Translations under genes and position numbers: made by a program
Part shown: positions 5,481 through 39,931 of the stretch, piece by piece
Numbering within the stretch: the first letter of the stretch is position 1
Layout of the letters: every line of letters begins with the position of its first letter
IMG/VR virus record: IMGVR_UViG_3300036832_000479
Location: 1-50,196 of that record
DNA: 50,196 bases
From: a virus
Direction: 5' to 3' (one strand)
Notes under the pieces: generated by a model
Told to the model about the DNA's origin: nothing
What the model saw: only the letters and a program-made list of their open reading frames with translations
The model's database searches: none

Positions 5481-8126
5481 ATGGCTAAACCCCGATCTGC
5501 GGCGCGCGTCCTGGAAGATGGCAAGCAACGCGAAATCATGCGACAACATAACGCCGGTTTGGAGGCCGAGAAAGCTGCCGCGGCAGGCAAAAAACCGGGT
5601 TTGAGGGGAAATTCAACCCGAGGACGCCGGAAAACAGCACAGATTTCAGAGGTTGAAATAAAGATTATACAGGAAGCTGCCTCGGCAGCGATCGGTCAGG
5701 ATGCGAATATCCCGGCAGATATCAAAGACTTAGCCCTGGCGGCGGCGTCGCCACCCGGCGCCGGCAAAATCAAGCGCGATCGGCCGATGTGGGACGGTTT
5801 TCGCAGCGTGTTCGTGCAGCTCCCGGACATGACGGTGAGCGAGTGGGCGGACCTGTATCGCATCCTGCCACGGACCGGATCGGCCGCACCGGGACCCTGG
5901 CGCACCGCGCGCACGCCGTACCTCAAGGCGATCATGGACGATCTGAGCCCACAGACCCGCGTCCGGGAGGTGGTGTTCTGCAAGGGCTCGCAGATCGGCG
6001 CACCGCTGGCGCTTGATACGCCGGTCCTGACAGTCCAGGGCTGGAAGACGATCGGCGCGGTGGAGGTTGGCGACCGGGTGTATGATGAAAATGGCAAGCC
6101 GCGCTTCGTCACCGGCCTGTCCGACGTGTTCACCGGCCGGGACTGCTTCGCGGTTTCGTTCAGCGACGGTACGGTGATCGTCTCGGACGGCGAGCATCGC
6201 TGGCCGGTGCAGCTCGGGCGTAACCGCCGGCAGGTGATCCGGCGCACGGCCGAGCTCATGCCGTATCTCGACGCCGGCCACCATGCCTCGGTGCCGCTGG
6301 TCAACCCGCCGCGCGCCTACCGGGACCGGGATGAGCTGCCGCGTCGGCGCCGCATGGTCAGCGTCCGGCCGGTGGCGTCCGTGCCCGTCCGCTGCATCCA
6401 GACCGAATCGCCGTCGCACCTGTTCCTGGTCGGCCTGACGATGATCCCGACGCATAACACCGAAGCCGGCACCAACTGGATTCTGTACGCGATGGACGTG
6501 ACGCCGGGACCGTTCCTCGCGGTGCAGCCGACCGAGGGCACCGCGACGCGGTGGAGCAAGCAGAGGGTGGGCCCGTCGCTCGAAGCCTGCGCGCAGCTCA
6601 AAGGGAAGGTGAAGCGCGCCAGCGGCAACACCGCCGGCAGCTCCATTCTGCAAAAGGACTATCCCGGCGGGACGCTGGTGATCAGCGGCGCCAACGCGCC
6701 GGCCGCGCTGGCATCGATGCCGATCGGCAACGTGTACGCCGATGAAATCGACCGTTATCCGCTCGACGTCGGCGAGGAAGGCGACCCGCTAGACCTGATC
6801 CGCCAGCGCACCGCGACCTATCCGCGGGCCAAGATTTTCTACACGTCGACGCCGACCCTCCTGATGTCGTCGAAAATCTGGGCGCTGTACCAGCAGTCGG
6901 ATCAACGGGTGCTGGAAGTGCCCTGCCCGCATTGTGGCGAGCTTCAGGAAATCCGGTTCGAGAATCTGCGCTGGCCGCGCGGGTCGCCGGAGGAAGTGGC
7001 GCTTTATTGCGTCGCCTGCACCAAGGCGATTCCGGAGCTGCACAAGACCTGGATGCTGGCGAACGCGTCGTGGATCGCCCGCAAGCCCGGGCACTGGCGG
7101 CACGGATATCACCTGTCGAGTCTATATAGCCCGCTCGGCTGGCTGTCCTGGATGGTGATCGCCCGGCGATTTGAGGAATGCGGGACGGACGTTGAAAAGA
7201 AGAAAAGCTTTACCAACACGATCCTGGGCCTGCCCTGGGAGGAAAGCGGCGAGACGATCGCGGCCGAATTCCTGGAGCGCCGCAAGGAGCAGTATGCCGG
7301 TCAGGTGCCGGACCGAGTCCTGCTGCTGACGCTAGCGGTCGACGTGCAGGCGGCGCGGCTGGAAATCGAAGTCTGCGGCTGGGGCCGTGACGAAGAATCC
7401 TGGGGCATCGAATATCGGACGATCCTCGGCGATCCTGCCGAACTGGTCGGGCCGGAGCCGGGCACGCCGTCCGTCTGGGATCAGTTGGAGGAATACCGCA
7501 AGCAGGTCTGGCGGCGCGCGGACGGCCGTGAGATGCGGGTGGCGTGCGTCACCATCGATAGCGGCGGGCACTATACGGATACGGTGTATGAGTACACGCG
7601 GCCGCGGGAACGCCAGCGGGTGTTCTCGGTCAAGGGCAGCTCGATTGCCGAGCGGGCGATCCTGACCAAGCCGACGCGCAACACGCGCAACCGGGCCGCC
7701 CTGTTCGTGGTCGGCGTCGACAAGGCGAAGGAGCTGATCTATTCGCGACTGCGGCTGGAAGGAAGCGGCCCGGGCTCGTGCCATTTCCCCAGCGATTCCT
7801 ACTCGGGATATGACGCGGCGTATTATGCCGGGCTCACCAGCGAGAAGCGGGTGATCAAGCATCTGCACGGGTATCCGGTGCTCAGGTGGGAGAAGCCGCG
7901 CGACGCCAGAAACGAGCCGCTGGATCTGCGGGTGTACGGGACGGCCGCGATCCGGATTCTAAAACCGGCCTGGGACATCCTGGAAGCCCGCATGGCCGGG
8001 GTGACGGCGCCGCCGATCAGAGTCGAGTCGACTCCGGTACCAGTGCCGCAGGCGATCGTGGCGGCCGCGCAGGCGCCGCGCCGCACGCCGCGGCCGCGCC
8101 GGCCGGACGGCATCTTCACGGACTAA
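5481..8126 (+). CDS. terL: Terminase large subunit (lambda gpA family) containing an intein
   Basis: 881 residues, or 729 after removal of the intein (residues 175-326). This is the ATPase-nuclease motor that packages DNA into the prohead. The ATPase has the deviant P-loop of gpA-type terminases: Lys168-Gly-Ser-Gln-Ile-Gly-Ala174, continuing after the intein as Thr327-Glu-Ala-Gly. Walker B is Val-Tyr-Ala-Asp-Glu-Ile-Asp (about 418-424). A zinc ribbon follows (Cys-Pro-His-Cys 482-485; Cys-Val-Ala-Cys 510-513). The C-terminal nuclease domain starts with Leu-Ala-Val-Asp-Val (Asp621) and has Thr-Ile-Asp-Ser-Gly-Gly-His downstream. The reading frame is intact throughout, so the protein needs protein splicing to rejoin its P-loop. 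Start ATG at 5481. Confidence 0.95.
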   Translation: MAKPRSAARVLEDGKQREIMRQHNAGLEAEKAAAAGKKPGLRGNSTRGRRKTAQISEVEIKIIQEAASAAIGQDANIPADIKDLALAAASPPGAGKIKRDRPMWDGFRSVFVQLPDMTVSEWADLYRILPRTGSAAPGPWRTARTPYLKAIMDDLSPQTRVREVVFCKGSQIGAPLALDTPVLTVQGWKTIGAVEVGDRVYDENGKPRFVTGLSDVFTGRDCFAVSFSDGTVIVSDGEHRWPVQLGRNRRQVIRRTAELMPYLDAGHHASVPLVNPPRAYRDRDELPRRRRMVSVRPVASVPVRCIQTESPSHLFLVGLTMIPTHNTEAGTNWILYAMDVTPGPFLAVQPTEGTATRWSKQRVGPSLEACAQLKGKVKRASGNTAGSSILQKDYPGGTLVISGANAPAALASMPIGNVYADEIDRYPLDVGEEGDPLDLIRQRTATYPRAKIFYTSTPTLLMSSKIWALYQQSDQRVLEVPCPHCGELQEIRFENLRWPRGSPEEVALYCVACTKAIPELHKTWMLANASWIARKPGHWRHGYHLSSLYSPLGWLSWMVIARRFEECGTDVEKKKSFTNTILGLPWEESGETIAAEFLERRKEQYAGQVPDRVLLLTLAVDVQAARLEIEVCGWGRDEESWGIEYRTILGDPAELVGPEPGTPSVWDQLEEYRKQVWRRADGREMRVACVTIDSGGHYTDTVYEYTRPRERQRVFSVKGSSIAERAILTKPTRNTRNRAALFVVGVDKAKELIYSRLRLEGSGPGSCHFPSDSYSGYDAAYYAGLTSEKRVIKHLHGYPVLRWEKPRDARNEPLDLRVYGTAAIRILKPAWDILEARMAGVTAPPIRVESTPVPVPQAIVAAAQAPRRTPRPRRPDGIFTD
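6003..6458 (+). other. Class 3-like mini-intein inside the terminase P-loop
   Basis: In-frame 152-residue insertion, residues Pro175 to Asn326 of the large terminase, between Ala174 and Thr327. Block A is Pro-Leu-Ala-Leu-Asp-Thr-Pro-Val, with Pro instead of the usual Cys or Ser at position 1. Block B has His239-Arg-Trp241, block F has Val-Arg-Cys305-Ile, and block G is Ile-Pro-Thr324-His325-Asn326 followed by Thr+1. Trp at B:12, Cys at F:4 and Thr at G:5 are the defining triad of class 3 inteins, where the block F Cys replaces residue 1 as the first nucleophile. The size leaves no room for a homing endonuclease, so it is a mini-intein. Class assignment rests on motif reading. Confidence 0.88.
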
Positions 8127-31291: not shown

Positions 31292-31547
31292 TTTTCGATA
31301 TGCCAAGACGATGCCGCAATGGCCGCACTGGTATATCGTCAAGGCGACAAGCGACCCGGAAATATATAAGGCGTTATTTGACGCCTGGAAAGCAGGGCGC
31401 ACGTGGGAGACGTTCAAGGGCCGCAGGCGTGGCTATCTGTACCTGGGCGACGGTTATAAATATTGGGCGATGGAAGAAAATTATGAGGACGCGACGGTGA
31501 TCAATCGCTCGGAAGCGAAGTCGAACGCCGAGCTAGGATTCGCGTGA
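31251..31547 (+). CDS. Conserved small protein ahead of IbrA-like gene
   Basis: 98 residues from the ATG after GGAAGGAACGAATA; a longer in-frame frame upstream overlaps the zinc-ribbon gene. It has Asn-Phe-Arg-Tyr-Ala-Lys-Thr-Met-Pro-Gln-Trp-Pro-His-Trp-Tyr-Ile-Val and later Gly-Asp-Gly-Tyr-Lys-Tyr-Trp, Val-Ile-Asn-Arg-Ser. I have seen this pair of motifs in phage genes next to methyltransferases, where the function is unassigned. The stop is shared with the start of the next gene (GTGA). Confidence 0.65.
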   Translation: MTNEELIVALADVNFRYAKTMPQWPHWYIVKATSDPEIYKALFDAWKAGRTWETFKGRRRGYLYLGDGYKYWAMEENYEDATVINRSEAKSNAELGFA

Positions 31548-32701
31548 CCACCTATTCGGCAGCGACGGTGTTCGACGCCGCGCTTGACCGGATACGCTGG
31601 GTCTATGACCACACCGACGATCTGATCGTGTCGATGTCGGGTGGGAAGGACTCCACCGTCATGTACGAGCTGGCGCGGATCGTCGCCGCCGAACGCGGCC
31701 GCCTGCCGCTCAAATGCTTCTGGCTCGACCAGGAAGCCGAGTGGCAATCCACGGTGGATTACATGCAGGCCGTGATGCACGAGCCTGATGTCAAGCCCTA
31801 CTGGTTCCAGGTGCCGTTCCGGCTCACCAACTCGATGTCGTTCACCAACTCCTATCTGCACGCCTGGGCGCCGGAGGACCGCGAGCGCTGGATTCACCCG
31901 CAGGACCCGGTGGCGATCACCCGCAACCCGACCAACTCCGATCGGTTCTATACGCTCGTCAAGCAGCTCCCGCTTTACTGCGGCGTGCGGTATCGCAAGC
32001 ATGTCGGAATCCTGATCGGGCTGAGGATGAGCGAAAGCGGCAACCGGCGCATGATGCTCATGACGCCGCGCGTGCCCTACGGCGGGATCAACTGGTGCAG
32101 GAAAGCCACGAACAACACGCGCGGCTTCTACCCGATTTACGACTGGAGCGACCAGGATATATGGACGGCCATCGCCAAGCACGATTGGACGTACAACCGG
32201 GTCTATGACCAGTTTTACCGTTACGGACTGGCGCCGGCCAAGATGCGGGTTTCGGCGCTGATCCACGAGACGTCGTGGCGTTCGATCGATCGCCTGCACG
32301 AAATCGAGCCGGCCACCTACGATCGATTCCTTGACCGGCTGTCCGGTGCGAACTGCTTCGCGCAGTTCGGCGAAGATATCATGGTGTACAAGCTGCCACC
32401 CACGTTCGCGGACTGGCGCGAGTATCGCGACTATCTCCTTGAACACCTGATCGCACCTGAAAAGCAGGCGATTTTCCGGCGTCGCTGGGGCCACAAGAAG
32501 GGCGGCGAAGACGAGCGCTGGCTGAAAATCCAGGTCAAGGAAGTGATGCTGAACGACGTTGATGGCACGTTCGCCAACAACGCGTTTGCCGGCTTCAGGG
32601 CCAAGGACTTCGTCGACAGCGGCGCGCGGGATGCCCGTAGAGCCGAACGCTTCCAGAAATTTCTGACGGAGGACGCTGCCCGTGGCAAGCTGGGACTATG
32701 A
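31544..32701 (+). CDS. IbrA-like PP-loop (PAPS-reductase family) protein
   Basis: 385 residues, GTG start overlapping the previous stop. Residues 28-40 hold the ATP-pyrophosphatase loop Ser-Met-Ser-Gly-Gly-Lys-Asp-Ser, followed by Phe-Trp-Leu-Asp-Gln-Glu. Downstream are Arg-Met-Ser-Glu-Ser-Gly-Asn-Arg-Arg, Pro-Ile-Tyr-Asp-Trp-Ser-Asp-Gln-Asp-Ile-Trp and a DUF3440-like C-terminus. This is the PAPS-reductase-like family of phage IbrA, not a sulfate-assimilation enzyme: no sulfur pathway gene is near, and an IbrB-like ParB gene is. IbrA/IbrB are known co-activators of prophage genes in E. coli; enzymatic substrate unknown. May activate a substrate by adenylation. Confidence 0.8.
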   Translation: MTTYSAATVFDAALDRIRWVYDHTDDLIVSMSGGKDSTVMYELARIVAAERGRLPLKCFWLDQEAEWQSTVDYMQAVMHEPDVKPYWFQVPFRLTNSMSFTNSYLHAWAPEDRERWIHPQDPVAITRNPTNSDRFYTLVKQLPLYCGVRYRKHVGILIGLRMSESGNRRMMLMTPRVPYGGINWCRKATNNTRGFYPIYDWSDQDIWTAIAKHDWTYNRVYDQFYRYGLAPAKMRVSALIHETSWRSIDRLHEIEPATYDRFLDRLSGANCFAQFGEDIMVYKLPPTFADWREYRDYLLEHLIAPEKQAIFRRRWGHKKGGEDERWLKIQVKEVMLNDVDGTFANNAFAGFRAKDFVDSGARDARRAERFQKFLTEDAARGKLGL

Positions 32702-33401
32702 CGGCTCGATCGATCGGTGGCCGGTAAAACCTGAGCAGCTCTGGGAGTGCCAGCGCGGCCGCGTCATGGCGCACGATCTCTGCGCGGGTACGCCGAATCA
32801 TATGCTCGCGGCCGACTGCATTTTTGTCGACCCGCCATACAACCTTGCAGCGCTTAACGCTTTCCGCACCAAGGCTGGAATCAAGGAAAAAAGCGAATCG
32901 TTCGAATGGTTTTTCAAGGCGCTTTTCAGGACCATCGACACGATCAAGCCGCGGACCTGCTTCATCGAAATCGGCCGGCAATATCTTCCAGCAACGGAAA
33001 TCGCGCTGCGCGAACGCTTTCCCTATGTCGAGCACTGGCGCGGGACCTACTATCACACGCCGACAAATGTCTGCTGGATCGTCCGCGGCGGCAATGAACG
33101 GGCGACGCTCGACCTGGAAGGGGTAGACGAAGCCGACGCGGTCGCGGAAATCTGTCGCCAGGAGGCATTCGAGACGATCGCCGATCCGTGCATGGGCCGC
33201 GGCCTTGTCGGCATTAACGCCTACAAGGCGCAACGGCGGTTTGTCGGAACCGAGCTGAACGCGTCGCGGCTCGCCGTGATGATCAACGCTATCCACAAAC
33301 TCGGAGGGGATTGGCATGTCGACGGCACCCGATATGAGCCACAACCCGGTGTCAAACGTCCGGTGGGTGCCGATCGAAAAAATTCACGCCAACAACTATA
33401 A
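32682..33401 (+). CDS. DNA N6-adenine/N4-cytosine methyltransferase
   Basis: 239 residues, GTG start inside the 3' end of the IbrA-like gene. Catalytic motif IV Asp50-Pro-Pro-Tyr53-Asn is N-terminal to the SAM-binding motif I, Ala-Asp-Pro-Cys-Met-Gly-Arg-Gly-Leu-Val-Gly (167-177), followed by Phe-Val-Gly-Thr-Glu-Leu-Asn. IV-before-I is the beta-class order. No target-recognition domain of usual size is visible, so specificity may come from partner proteins. It overlaps the next gene by 86 bases. The placement between IbrA- and IbrB-like genes is unusual. Confidence 0.8.
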   Translation: MASWDYDGSIDRWPVKPEQLWECQRGRVMAHDLCAGTPNHMLAADCIFVDPPYNLAALNAFRTKAGIKEKSESFEWFFKALFRTIDTIKPRTCFIEIGRQYLPATEIALRERFPYVEHWRGTYYHTPTNVCWIVRGGNERATLDLEGVDEADAVAEICRQEAFETIADPCMGRGLVGINAYKAQRRFVGTELNASRLAVMINAIHKLGGDWHVDGTRYEPQPGVKRPVGADRKNSRQQL

Positions 33402-34053
33402 TCCAAATTCCGTCGCGCTGATGGAAATGAAATTACTCTATACGTCGATCAAGCACGACGGCTATACTATGCCGATTGTGACGATATACAACAAAATCAA
33501 GGACCGTTACGAGATCGTGGACGGATTTCACCGCTACAGTATTATGCGGCGCTATCCGGACATCCGCGAGCGTAACCACGGCCTGTTGCCGGTCGTGGTT
33601 ATCGATAAGGACGTGAACGATCGCATGGCGTCGACGATCCGTCACAACCGCGCGCGTGGCCGGCACTCTATCGACGGCATGTCTAACCTTGTCGTGCAGA
33701 TGCTCAATAACGGCTGGTCTGACGATCGCGTGCGGGACGAACTCGGCCTGGAGCCGGAGGAACTGACCCGGCTCAAGCACGTGACCGGCTACGCCAAGTT
33801 TTTCCTGGATGGCGAATTCTCACGGGCGATCGAATTGCCCCAGCACACCGAAAGGACACCGACCTATGAGCGAGATCGCGCCGCTGCTGCCCATGCCGGA
33901 AACGGCGATCGTCACGAAGCTGGCGCTGGTGCCGCTGGCGAAAATCAAGCCGTACCACCGCAACGTCCGGATCAACGACGAAACCGTGAGCCGGCTGGTC
34001 GAGCTAATCCCAAAAGTCGGGTTCAACGTCCCGCTGGTGCTCGACCGAAATAA
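33316..34053 (+). CDS. IbrB-like ParB/Srx-fold protein with overprinted tail
   Basis: 245 residues. Residues 15-175 match IbrB-type ParB proteins: Val-Pro-Ile-Glu-Lys-Ile-His, Asn-Tyr-Asn-Pro-Asn, Asp-Gly-Phe-His-Arg-Tyr (69-74), Val-Val-Val-Ile-Asp-Lys-Asp and Arg-His-Asn-Arg-Ala-Arg-Gly-Arg-His (109-117). ParB-fold proteins use CTP or ATP and often bind DNA or act as nucleases. From about residue 184 the tail is low-complexity Arg/Ala/Pro and coincides with the next gene in another frame, so the normal protein probably ends near residue 180. Functional partner of the IbrA-like gene two genes upstream. Confidence 0.8.
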   Translation: MSTAPDMSHNPVSNVRWVPIEKIHANNYNPNSVALMEMKLLYTSIKHDGYTMPIVTIYNKIKDRYEIVDGFHRYSIMRRYPDIRERNHGLLPVVVIDKDVNDRMASTIRHNRARGRHSIDGMSNLVVQMLNNGWSDDRVRDELGLEPEELTRLKHVTGYAKFFLDGEFSRAIELPQHTERTPTYERDRAAAAHAGNGDRHEAGAGAAGENQAVPPQRPDQRRNREPAGRANPKSRVQRPAGARPK

Positions 34054-34489
34054 CACGATCGTCAAAGGTCATGCCCGGTGGAAGGCGGCCGTCAAGCTCG
34101 GCCTCGCCAAGATCCCGTGCGTCTACACCGACGCCGATGACGAGACGATCAAGCTCGACCGGCTGGCCGATAACCGGGTGCAGGAATTCACCCAATGGGA
34201 TGACGAGATGTTGGCGAGCGAACTGGCGTCGCTTAACCTGGACGTCGACGTGGACAGCCTGCTCGAAAGCCTGGATTTCGTGGTGGAGCAGATCGAGATT
34301 GACGAAGCCGAGCCGGAGCCGGATGAACCGGACGAAGCCGAGCCTGACGCAGACGACGAAAACCAGCCGGCGCCGCGGGCCGCAGCTCCGCAGCCGGAGG
34401 ACATCCGGAAATATACCGAGATCACCTGCTCAAAATGCGGGTACGTGATGTTCATCAAGGGCGGTGAAGCGGCCACGGACGAACGCTGA
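33866..34489 (+). CDS. Second ParB-domain protein with zinc ribbon
   Basis: 207 residues from the ATG after GAAAGGACACCGACCT. N-terminal ParB/Srx domain: Val-Pro-Leu-Ala-Lys-Ile-Lys-Pro-Tyr-His-Arg-Asn, Val-Pro-Leu-Val-Leu-Asp, Ile-Val-Lys-Gly-His-Ala-Arg-Trp, Asp-Asn-Arg. An acidic Glu/Pro/Asp linker follows, then Cys-Ser-Lys-Cys-Gly near the C-terminus. This type often accompanies phage methyltransferases or terminases. Overlaps the IbrB-like gene by 188 bases in a different frame. Confidence 0.78.
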   Translation: MSEIAPLLPMPETAIVTKLALVPLAKIKPYHRNVRINDETVSRLVELIPKVGFNVPLVLDRNNTIVKGHARWKAAVKLGLAKIPCVYTDADDETIKLDRLADNRVQEFTQWDDEMLASELASLNLDVDVDSLLESLDFVVEQIEIDEAEPEPDEPDEAEPDADDENQPAPRAAAPQPEDIRKYTEITCSKCGYVMFIKGGEAATDER

Positions 34490-37575: not shown

Positions 37576-38418
37576 TCAAAAGGGGGATTGCGGATCGAAC
37601 GCGCGCGGCTTGGCGACCCGCCTGGGGCCGTCCGGTTTCGGGTCAGGTGCGCGCTGCTCCGGCTCCGTGGCTGGACGTATGGGCTCGGCTGGTGCGTCTA
37701 CCGGCGCATCCGGCACCGGATCGGGTGCCGGCACGTGCGCGCCTTCTGGCGGGCTGATCGTGGCCCTAACCGGCGCGTGCTCGATAATCTCGCCGGACTC
37801 TTCCATCGTGGGCAGCCCTAGCGAAACCTCCGGCGCGTACAGGCGGGAGAAGAACGCGGCCGCCCGATATCTTAGCATCAGGTCCGGCATGGTTTTCCAC
37901 TTGGAGCCGGCGCGCGTGAACCAACCCTCGGCAACGGCCATGCCGATCGAAACGGTTGGCGATTCCAGCCGTTCGCCGGACGCGTATTCCGTCGCCCAGG
38001 CGACGCAGCTCCGATCAGTGACGTCCATCGTTGCCTCGCGGCGCTCGCGGTTGTCGCGCGGACCCGCCCAATATTCATACTGAACCTTACGTGTGCCCAA
38101 ATCCTCCAACACGAACCGCAGCGGCGAGAATTTCCCGCAGGTGTTTATGGCCGCGATCAGGAATTGAGCGGACCAGCTTGGCCGGCCTTCGATGACGTGC
38201 AAATTCTGCATCACCATCAACGGCGTGGCATTGATCCGCTTGGCGATATCCAGGGCCACGAGGCAATTCGCGACGCCGGGCTCACCGCGATATTCCTTCG
38301 GCACCAGCGAGGACGACGACAAGGCTTCTGCCATCCTGACGGCGGACGTGAAGGAATTTATGTTGCCGAAGATCGAGACTTCAACTTGTGGTGCTGTCGT
38401 TATTAGTTCGTTCATCAC
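37576..38418 (-). CDS. recT: RecT-family single-strand annealing protein
   Basis: 280 residues. Core residues 1-210 include Pro-Leu-Met-Val-Met-Gln-Asn-Leu, Ala-Gln-Phe-Leu-Ile-Ala-Ala-Ile-Asn, Arg-Tyr-Arg-Ala-Ala-Ala-Phe-Phe-Ser-Arg-Leu-Tyr-Ala-Pro-Glu-Val, as in RecT proteins that promote strand annealing. The last 70 residues are Pro/Asp/Glu-rich and disordered, possibly binding SSB-like or exonuclease partners. ATG 38418 or 38415; overlaps the stop of the inserted HNH gene. Pairs with the nuclease at 39107. Confidence 0.9.
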   Translation of the reverse strand: MMNELITTAPQVEVSIFGNINSFTSAVRMAEALSSSSLVPKEYRGEPGVANCLVALDIAKRINATPLMVMQNLHVIEGRPSWSAQFLIAAINTCGKFSPLRFVLEDLGTRKVQYEYWAGPRDNRERREATMDVTDRSCVAWATEYASGERLESPTVSIGMAVAEGWFTRAGSKWKTMPDLMLRYRAAAFFSRLYAPEVSLGLPTMEESGEIIEHAPVRATISPPEGAHVPAPDPVPDAPVDAPAEPIRPATEPEQRAPDPKPDGPRRVAKPRAFDPQSPF

Positions 38419-39101
38419 CGGTTGTTCCTTCTCATTCTGGCGTGTAGCGCGAGATGATACTTGTGAGTGCAGATTAATAAATTTTCCGGTCTATTATCGG
38501 ACCGATCCTCGTTTATGTGGTGCACGACTTCGAGTCGCCGAAACGGGCGGCCTAGCGCGCGCTCTGCAATAATGCGATGTTCTCGCTGCTTCGTATTTTT
38601 CCCAACGTTAACCGTAACATATCCCATTGGATCGATGCCTTTGTTTCCCAAGTGCTGAGAATGGAAAGTATCACCCTTTAATCTTGTTTCTACGCCTGAG
38701 CGTTTTATCGCTTTTAGAATAGCAGTATGAGTACAATTCATCGTATCGGCAATCTGTGTACTTGAGATTCCCTTTGCGTACATTTGACAAACTGCGGCAT
38801 AATCTAGCTTTCGCCTCGGGTGCATTTTAATTCCTGAATTCCTAAGGATATTAAATGCAACAGAAACACAACACCCGATAGTCTTCGAAATTAAATCAAG
38901 AGAAGCTCCAGACTCGTATAATGAGACAATCCTTTCCCTATCATATATAAGTGGACTACGTGACTCGATATTGAGATATTTCAATATTTTACTAACCGCC
39001 GGGCGCGAGCAGCCGATTTTTGACGATATATCGGCCTGAGATAGTCCAGACTTATAAAGACTTGCAATTTCGTCATAGTCTAGCTTTCGTTTATTGTTCA
39101 T
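38415..39101 (-). CDS. HNH homing endonuclease with repeated helix-turn-helix domains
   Basis: 228 residues from the ATG at 39101. Three tandem units of about 45 residues begin with Tyr-x-x-[Ile/Val]-x-x-[Leu/Met]-Tyr and end in an Ile-[Gly/Thr]-Cys-type turn (Ile-Gly-Cys-Ser-Arg, Ile-Gly-Cys-Cys, Met-Asn-Cys-Thr), each a helix-turn-helix. The C-terminus is an HNH nuclease: His-His-Ile-Asn-Glu-Asp-Arg-Ser-Asn/Asp-Asn-Arg-Pro-Glu-Asn-Leu. The gene is conspicuously AT-rich against its surroundings, so it is an invader. It sits exactly between the two recombination genes, with overlaps on both sides. Free-standing homing endonucleases of this kind spread between related phages. Confidence 0.88.
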   Translation of the reverse strand: MNNKRKLDYDEIASLYKSGLSQADISSKIGCSRPAVSKILKYLNIESRSPLIYDRERIVSLYESGASLDLISKTIGCCVSVAFNILRNSGIKMHPRRKLDYAAVCQMYAKGISSTQIADTMNCTHTAILKAIKRSGVETRLKGDTFHSQHLGNKGIDPMGYVTVNVGKNTKQREHRIIAERALGRPFRRLEVVHHINEDRSDNRPENLLICTHKYHLALHARMRRNNR

Positions 39102-39106
39102 TTCGT

Positions 39107-39931
39107 CTACTTCCATACTTTTGTAATTTTGCAAAATTCTGTGTTAAATGCCGGACAGAATTTGGCACTACATAGCAATGACATGGGATTTTCTGGAAAT
39201 GCGTCTGGATTGCCCGACGCAATGAACGACTGCACGTCGCGCCTGATGCGCAGAATCGATGTCCACGCGATCTGCTCGCAGAGATAGACCGGGAGTCGTT
39301 CCGACTCCGGTGCAGCTTGCGGCCGCCGCCGTGGCGTCCGTTCGACAAAATCGATCACTAGTTCGGTGATGTTAGTGGGCAGCCCTGGAAGCTCTGCCGA
39401 GCGGACCAGCAGCGCATAGGCGCCGAGCTGCGCGTGATAGGACCGCGCCAGCACGCCGGTCTTGATGTCGTGGACCCGGCAACCGCCTTCGACCCTGCTG
39501 ACCACGTCTATCGTTCCGGACAGCTCCCAGCCTTCTCCGAGATCGGCGACGACGCGGCATTCAACGGCGATCGGGTCAATGGCGCGGCCGATGCCGTTAA
39601 TGTAGGCGGTCGCGATCCGGGTGAGCTGCGTGGCCGCGGCGTCGATTGTCGGCGTGGTATCGTCCCAGAGCAGCCCGCCGACCGACTCCATTTTAAGCGC
39701 TTCGATCGCGGCTTCGATCGCTTTGGAAAGACTGAAATCCTCATCCGCCAACCGCGCGCGGTAATAAGATTCCGCGACCCGGTGGACGGCAATTCCCATC
39801 ATGGCGCCGATGGATCGGTCCGTCTCGCGCAGCTCAAAACCAGCCTCCGAGATCAGGCGCCGGTATTGGCGGGCCGCAGCTCGACGCGCGCAATCATTGT
39901 AAGCCGGGAGCATTGAAGCCCGGAGATTCAT
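39107..39931 (-). CDS. RecB/Cas4-like PD-(D/E)xK exonuclease
   Basis: 274 residues, first gene of the leftward operon. Gly-Thr-Ile-Asp-Val-Val (139-144) and Val-His-Asp-Ile-Lys-Thr-Gly (153-159) form the nuclease core; a Gln-Leu-Gly-Ala-Tyr motif follows. Cys14 and Cys254, Cys259, Cys267 resemble the four-Cys iron-sulfur staple of Cas4/AddB nucleases. It probably resects DNA ends to give single strands for RecT. The last bases overlap the spacer to the HNH gene. Confidence 0.85.
   Translation of the reverse strand: MNLRASMLPAYNDCARRAAARQYRRLISEAGFELRETDRSIGAMMGIAVHRVAESYYRARLADEDFSLSKAIEAAIEALKMESVGGLLWDDTTPTIDAAATQLTRIATAYINGIGRAIDPIAVECRVVADLGEGWELSGTIDVVSRVEGGCRVHDIKTGVLARSYHAQLGAYALLVRSAELPGLPTNITELVIDFVERTPRRRPQAAPESERLPVYLCEQIAWTSILRIRRDVQSFIASGNPDAFPENPMSLLCSAKFCPAFNTEFCKITKVWK

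Follow-up and report, generated by a model that had tools for sequence, protein, structure and literature searches.

A class 3 mini-intein in the P-loop of a GpA-family large terminase from an environmental virus

Background

The window analysed here is a whole stretch of 50,196 nucleotides, IMG/VR virus record IMGVR_UViG_3300036832_000479. It encodes a large terminase whose ATPase domain is split by residues 175-326, and the best Pfam ATPase stretch begins only at residue 324. The locus raises the question of what this segment is, and of how an intein beginning with proline could splice. Class 3 inteins are recognised by Trp at B:12, Cys at F:4 and Thr at G:5, with no nucleophile at position 1, and the order of their two branched intermediates has been described (PMC5222942, PMC7891396), as has their Cys-His-Thr triad (PMC7664689). 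Class 3 mini-inteins are known and their splicing has been demonstrated (PMC5222942). LAGLIDADG motifs were reported in 82.5% of 1701 class 3 inteins, and many therefore lack them (PMC7891396). Inteins at terminase P-loops are also already known (PMC5050341).

The terminase gene and its interruption

The 881-residue open reading frame belongs to the GpA family of large terminases, with matches to Pfam GpA_ATPase (E 4.2e-72), GpA_nuclease (E 1.7e-82) and PHROG 15, terminase large subunit (E 1.6e-233). The insert aligns to positions 80-150 of the PHROG 15 profile and the C-extein resumes at 413; judging by the positions matched, this profile seems already to span an intein at the P-loop site. 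An earlier reading of the letters alone (the sequence-only reading) had equated residues 175-326 with nucleotides 6003-6458, numbered W241, C305 and T324, and given a spliced length of 729 residues; all of these values are exact (Table 1).

Table 1. Features of the interrupted terminase gene and short inteins at the same site in other GpA terminases.
Feature	Position in window	Strand	Basis
Precursor ORF, GpA-family (lambda-type) large terminase with intein, 881 aa	5481..8126	+	Pfam, PHROG
N-extein, residues 1-174, ending VVFCKGSQIGA	5481..6002	+	translation; alignment with intein-free homologues
Deviant Walker A Lys168	5982-5984	+	Lys position swap among homologues
Class 3 mini-intein, residues 175-326, 152 aa	6003..6458	+	phmmer to 6rix and 6bs8; AlphaFold model; VIA-align
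Block B His239 (intein His65), catalytic His of class 3	6195..6197	+	equivalent to MchDnaB1 His65, PMC7664689
Trp241 (block B:12), first of WCT triplet	6201..6203	+	invariant in aligned relatives
Linker, about intein residues 87-113, where relatives hold the LAGLIDADG endonuclease	6261..6341 (approximate)	+	pairwise alignment with L119, L118, L010, L017
Cys305 (block F:4), predicted first nucleophile	6393..6395	+	invariant in aligned relatives
Thr308-Glu309 (intein 134-135), departure from block F VD of aligned relatives	6402..6407	+	
Block G Thr324-His325-Asn326: T of WCT, penultimate His, cyclising Asn	6450..6458	+	
C-extein, starting at Thr+1 (Walker A Thr), TEAGTNW	6459..8126	+	translation; alignment with intein-free homologues
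Endonuclease-free GpA forms: L113 (159 aa), L198 (156 aa), L203 (166 aa), L208 (174 aa), L148 (200 aa)			

Searched against the phage collection over a stretch of 584 residues, the spliced protein has matches in 811 records, 690 of which match over at least 80% in one place. When five of these intein-free GpA terminases were aligned with the window protein, in line with the comparison that the sequence-only reading had proposed, they showed the segment as a gap between QxG and [K/S/G/A]-[T/S]-E. Because the homologues gap precisely residues 175-326, the segment is an insertion and not a terminase domain.

The junction lies between Ala174, at the end of the motif CKGSQIGA, and the Walker A Thr, which follows Asn326 as residue +1 of the C-extein. 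The loop departs from the classic Walker A motif (GKT/S), as Ala174 and not Lys precedes the Thr, and the Lys is found in the N-extein at position 168. Among the GpA homologues typed (rows with redundancy), the P-loop Lys stands either at the position of Lys168 or directly before the Thr/Ser, never at both; the sole exception is locus L180, whose N-terminal flank was misparsed. In the GpA terminases collected, Lys at the position of Lys168 goes with Ala or Gly before the Thr. This pattern supports the deviant Walker A Lys168 and the P-loop insertion that had been proposed from the sequence. GpA terminases thus possess two alternative, mutually exclusive P-loop Lys positions six residues apart, and class 3 inteins were found in terminases of both kinds. 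It is a sound inference from the interruption of the P-loop that packaging would depend on splicing.

Class of the intein and its catalytic residues

The search of the 152 residues against inteins that the sequence-only reading had called for matched, over the whole insert, the solved class 3 DnaB inteins 6rix (phmmer E 7.3e-30) and 6bs8 (E 2.6e-28), against E 3.5e-05 or worse for gp41-1 intein structures. The AlphaFold model of the insert, built with 21 related sequences as input, reached a mean pLDDT of 92.4 and a pTM of 0.86. Class 3 DnaB inteins rank first for this model with both Foldseek and VIA-align, the latter giving Z 22.3 to 6bs8 and 21.7 to 6rix (best rmsd 1.4 A over 127 residues) versus Z 18.2 and below for all other inteins. 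The predicted fold is therefore of the HINT type and near the class 3 structures, and a chance resemblance to inteins is ruled out by the E-values together with the fold. The Pfam and NCBIfam intein models scored the window insert below their cut-offs, and the intein would be missed if those libraries were used alone.

Translation and alignment bear out the Pro at position 1 (Pro175), in place of Cys, Ser or Thr, and the Trp241/Cys305/Thr324 triad that had been read from the sequence. The triad aligns with B:12, F:4 and G:5 of class 3 relatives and structures. His239 of block B, the penultimate His325, the terminal Asn326 and Thr+1 are present, and Asp236 is also at the place expected for class 3. 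Matches, predicted fold and residues thus agree with the class 3 mini-intein named by the sequence-only reading. That reading had also assigned the first branch to the block F Cys as an ester. The role of Cys305 stands as a prediction, while a Cys-based branch is a thioester.

By analogy with studied class 3 inteins, from which the order of steps is carried over, Cys305 would attack the Ala174-Pro175 bond after translation to form a branched thioester, and the acyl group would move to Thr+1. Asn326 would then cyclise and release the intein, joining the exteins into the 729-residue terminase with the P-loop KGSQIGA/T restored.

Absence of the endonuclease

The Pfam search of the window ORF found neither LAGLIDADG nor HNH within the insert, as expected from the sequence-only reading of 152 residues without an endonuclease. 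LAGLIDADG_3, in turn, was above the Pfam cut-off in three full-length relatives tested. Residues 1-86 and 114-152 of the window intein align to the two splicing blocks of the intein of L119, and about 27 residues of linker stand in place of the L119 endonuclease. Endonuclease loss is the simplest account of this arrangement, and a full-length class 3 intein is the most likely ancestor of the window intein. Such an ancestor would have homed into the site with its LAGLIDADG endonuclease, and the window intein would have lost that domain afterwards.

Elsewhere in the window, a free-standing gene at 38415-39134 on the minus strand encodes an HNH endonuclease with several helix-turn-helix motifs, similar to homing endonucleases. 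A role of this gene as an endonuclease in trans for the intein was considered and set aside, its support being its presence alone. A cassette at positions 31544-34489 comprises two ParB-like ORFs that overlap, a gene for a PAPS-reductase-like protein and a weak DNA-methylase-like match. The search of the phage collection with bases 1-25000 of the window found no DNA relative.

Class 3 inteins in other GpA terminases

Relatives were gathered by scanning viral contigs together with bacterial and archaeal genomes, one per species. After removal of near-copies there were 145 distinct class 3 inteins, including 53 in GpA terminases and nearly all of these at the identical P-loop site; because of search bias these numbers should not be read as frequencies. 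Class 3 inteins were also found at the P-loops of other terminase and ATPase genes. Most of those in GpA terminases (L002-L023, L033, L118-L133 and others) share the site and extein family of the window intein, and their N-terminal splicing block is about 41-60% identical to it. They differ from it in their LAGLIDADG endonuclease and in their length of 364-400 residues, typically about 365. Six are of at most 200 residues (152 in the window, 156, 159, 166, 174 and 200). The five others, listed in Table 1, are of the same class as the window intein, occupy the same site and are likewise too short for an endonuclease domain.

Locus L181, from a Candidatus Gottesmanbacteria MAG, encodes one GpA terminase with two class 3 inteins of 391 and 400 aa; the P-loop holds one of them, and the other lies downstream after DGDNTVLHK. 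In each of the near-copies L257 and L259, a single ORF has a pair of short class 3-like inteins (119 and 145 aa), and one ORF of L143 has two long inteins (457 and 574 aa). The L010 ORF, of 1394 aa, comprises a GpA terminase, a class 3 intein and about 400 C-terminal residues, for which the Pfam search gave no match.

Gain and loss at the site

The closest extein relative of the window terminase, L033 (66% identical over the N-extein and 63% over the C-extein), carries a full-length class 3 intein of 385 residues at the same site. The next relatives, L034 and L037 (54-55% identical), are without an intein, and the exteins of all four form one well supported group. Over the extein tree of 52 rows, intein presence requires at least nine changes. 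The N-terminal block of the window intein is about 41% identical to that of L033 versus 55-57% to others, which hinted at arrival from another lineage. Nonetheless, a clade of the window and L033 inteins was not rejected (109-column tree, AU p 0.36), and transfer is consequently not claimed.

L113 and L148, two of the other short forms, fall among full-length inteins and not beside the window intein, and belong to different lineages as far as they are placed. This placement suggests that the endonuclease was lost separately, with the AU test of the window and L113 as one clade borderline and not formally rejecting it (p 0.063).

Alternative readings and splicing activity

Given the sequence, the predicted fold and the catalytic residues, together with the insertion site and the lack of an endonuclease established above, we read the insert as a class 3 mini-intein just before the Walker A Thr that splices to give a 729-residue terminase and has since lost its endonuclease (probability about 0.94). 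The thought that residues 175-326 are a normal domain of a terminase subfamily, which the sequence-only reading had set against its own proposal, is refuted by the intein-free homologues and is virtually impossible. The only point in its favour is that the segment is in frame, whereas the 690 phage records and the alignments speak against it, L034 and L037 are uninterrupted, and the insert is predicted to have the HINT fold. A class 2 mechanism, in which Thr+1 itself attacks the N-junction, would also fit a position 1 without a nucleophile. It is very improbable, as no member of the W, C and T triplet is missing, both sequence and fold place the insert with class 3 structures, and the +1 residue cannot substitute for Cys F:4 in studied class 3 inteins (PMC5222942).

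An intein of class 3 ancestry that is now dead or poor at splicing, with inefficient production of the terminase as the result, has somewhat more in its favour. The window intein has Thr-Glu in place of Val-Asp at two block F positions (V134T and D135E) that are invariant in 20 aligned relatives, and a degenerate class 3 intein is known from the Arthrobacter Arth_1007 pseudogene (PMC3196547). Of the 142 class 3 inteins that were parsed, 124 have Val-Asp; Asp135 is replaced in several others, in three of them by Glu, and Thr134 was seen only in the window intein. However, no nucleophile or helper residue has been lost, the reading frame runs uninterrupted through both exteins, the rest of the terminase is intact with strong GpA ATPase and nuclease matches, and a nonfunctional intein in an essential gene would kill the phage, making a dead intein quite unlikely. 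The window intein keeps 21 of the 23 positions invariant in these 20 relatives but has the majority residue at only 43 of the 111 variable ones, the pattern expected if splicing is under selection; with a single copy of the intein in one environmental virus record, conservation over time can be gauged only indirectly. Splicing in the window phage is thus inferred from its sequence.

Comparison with known inteins and significance

The window intein is similar to Msm DnaB-1 (139 aa, 6bs8) and M. chimaera DnaB1 (145 aa, 6rix) in class, fold, residues and absence of an endonuclease, and also in its P-loop insertion before a Ser/Thr (Msm flanks FGVGK/STLGL, PMC5222942). Those two reside in a replicative helicase and follow a Lys at -1, whereas the window intein resides in a GpA terminase, between Ala at -1 and Thr at +1. 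The mycobacteriophage TerL1-a inteins (PMC5050341) likewise interrupt a terminase P-loop between the invariant Lys and the Thr; their host is of the Terminase_1 family and not GpA, and the likeness drawn here is one of insertion site. A limited literature search found no paper naming inteins in GpA terminases, which does not imply that there is none. Precedents exist for class 3 mini-inteins, for terminases that hold class 3 inteins and for insertion at the P-loop, and the same site is filled in dozens of GpA terminases. We consider it unlikely that the endonuclease-free class 3 inteins of the GpA P-loop are not remnants but are kept as regulators, whose slow or conditional splicing would time the packaging motor.

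The window intein adds a natural short form with an unusual block F to a class that is used in protein engineering and of which few members have been studied experimentally. Class 3 inteins recur in the ATP-binding loop of GpA terminases, and several lineages hold versions without an endonuclease. The intein-bearing and intein-free relatives given above make gain, loss and possible regulation testable at one essential site.
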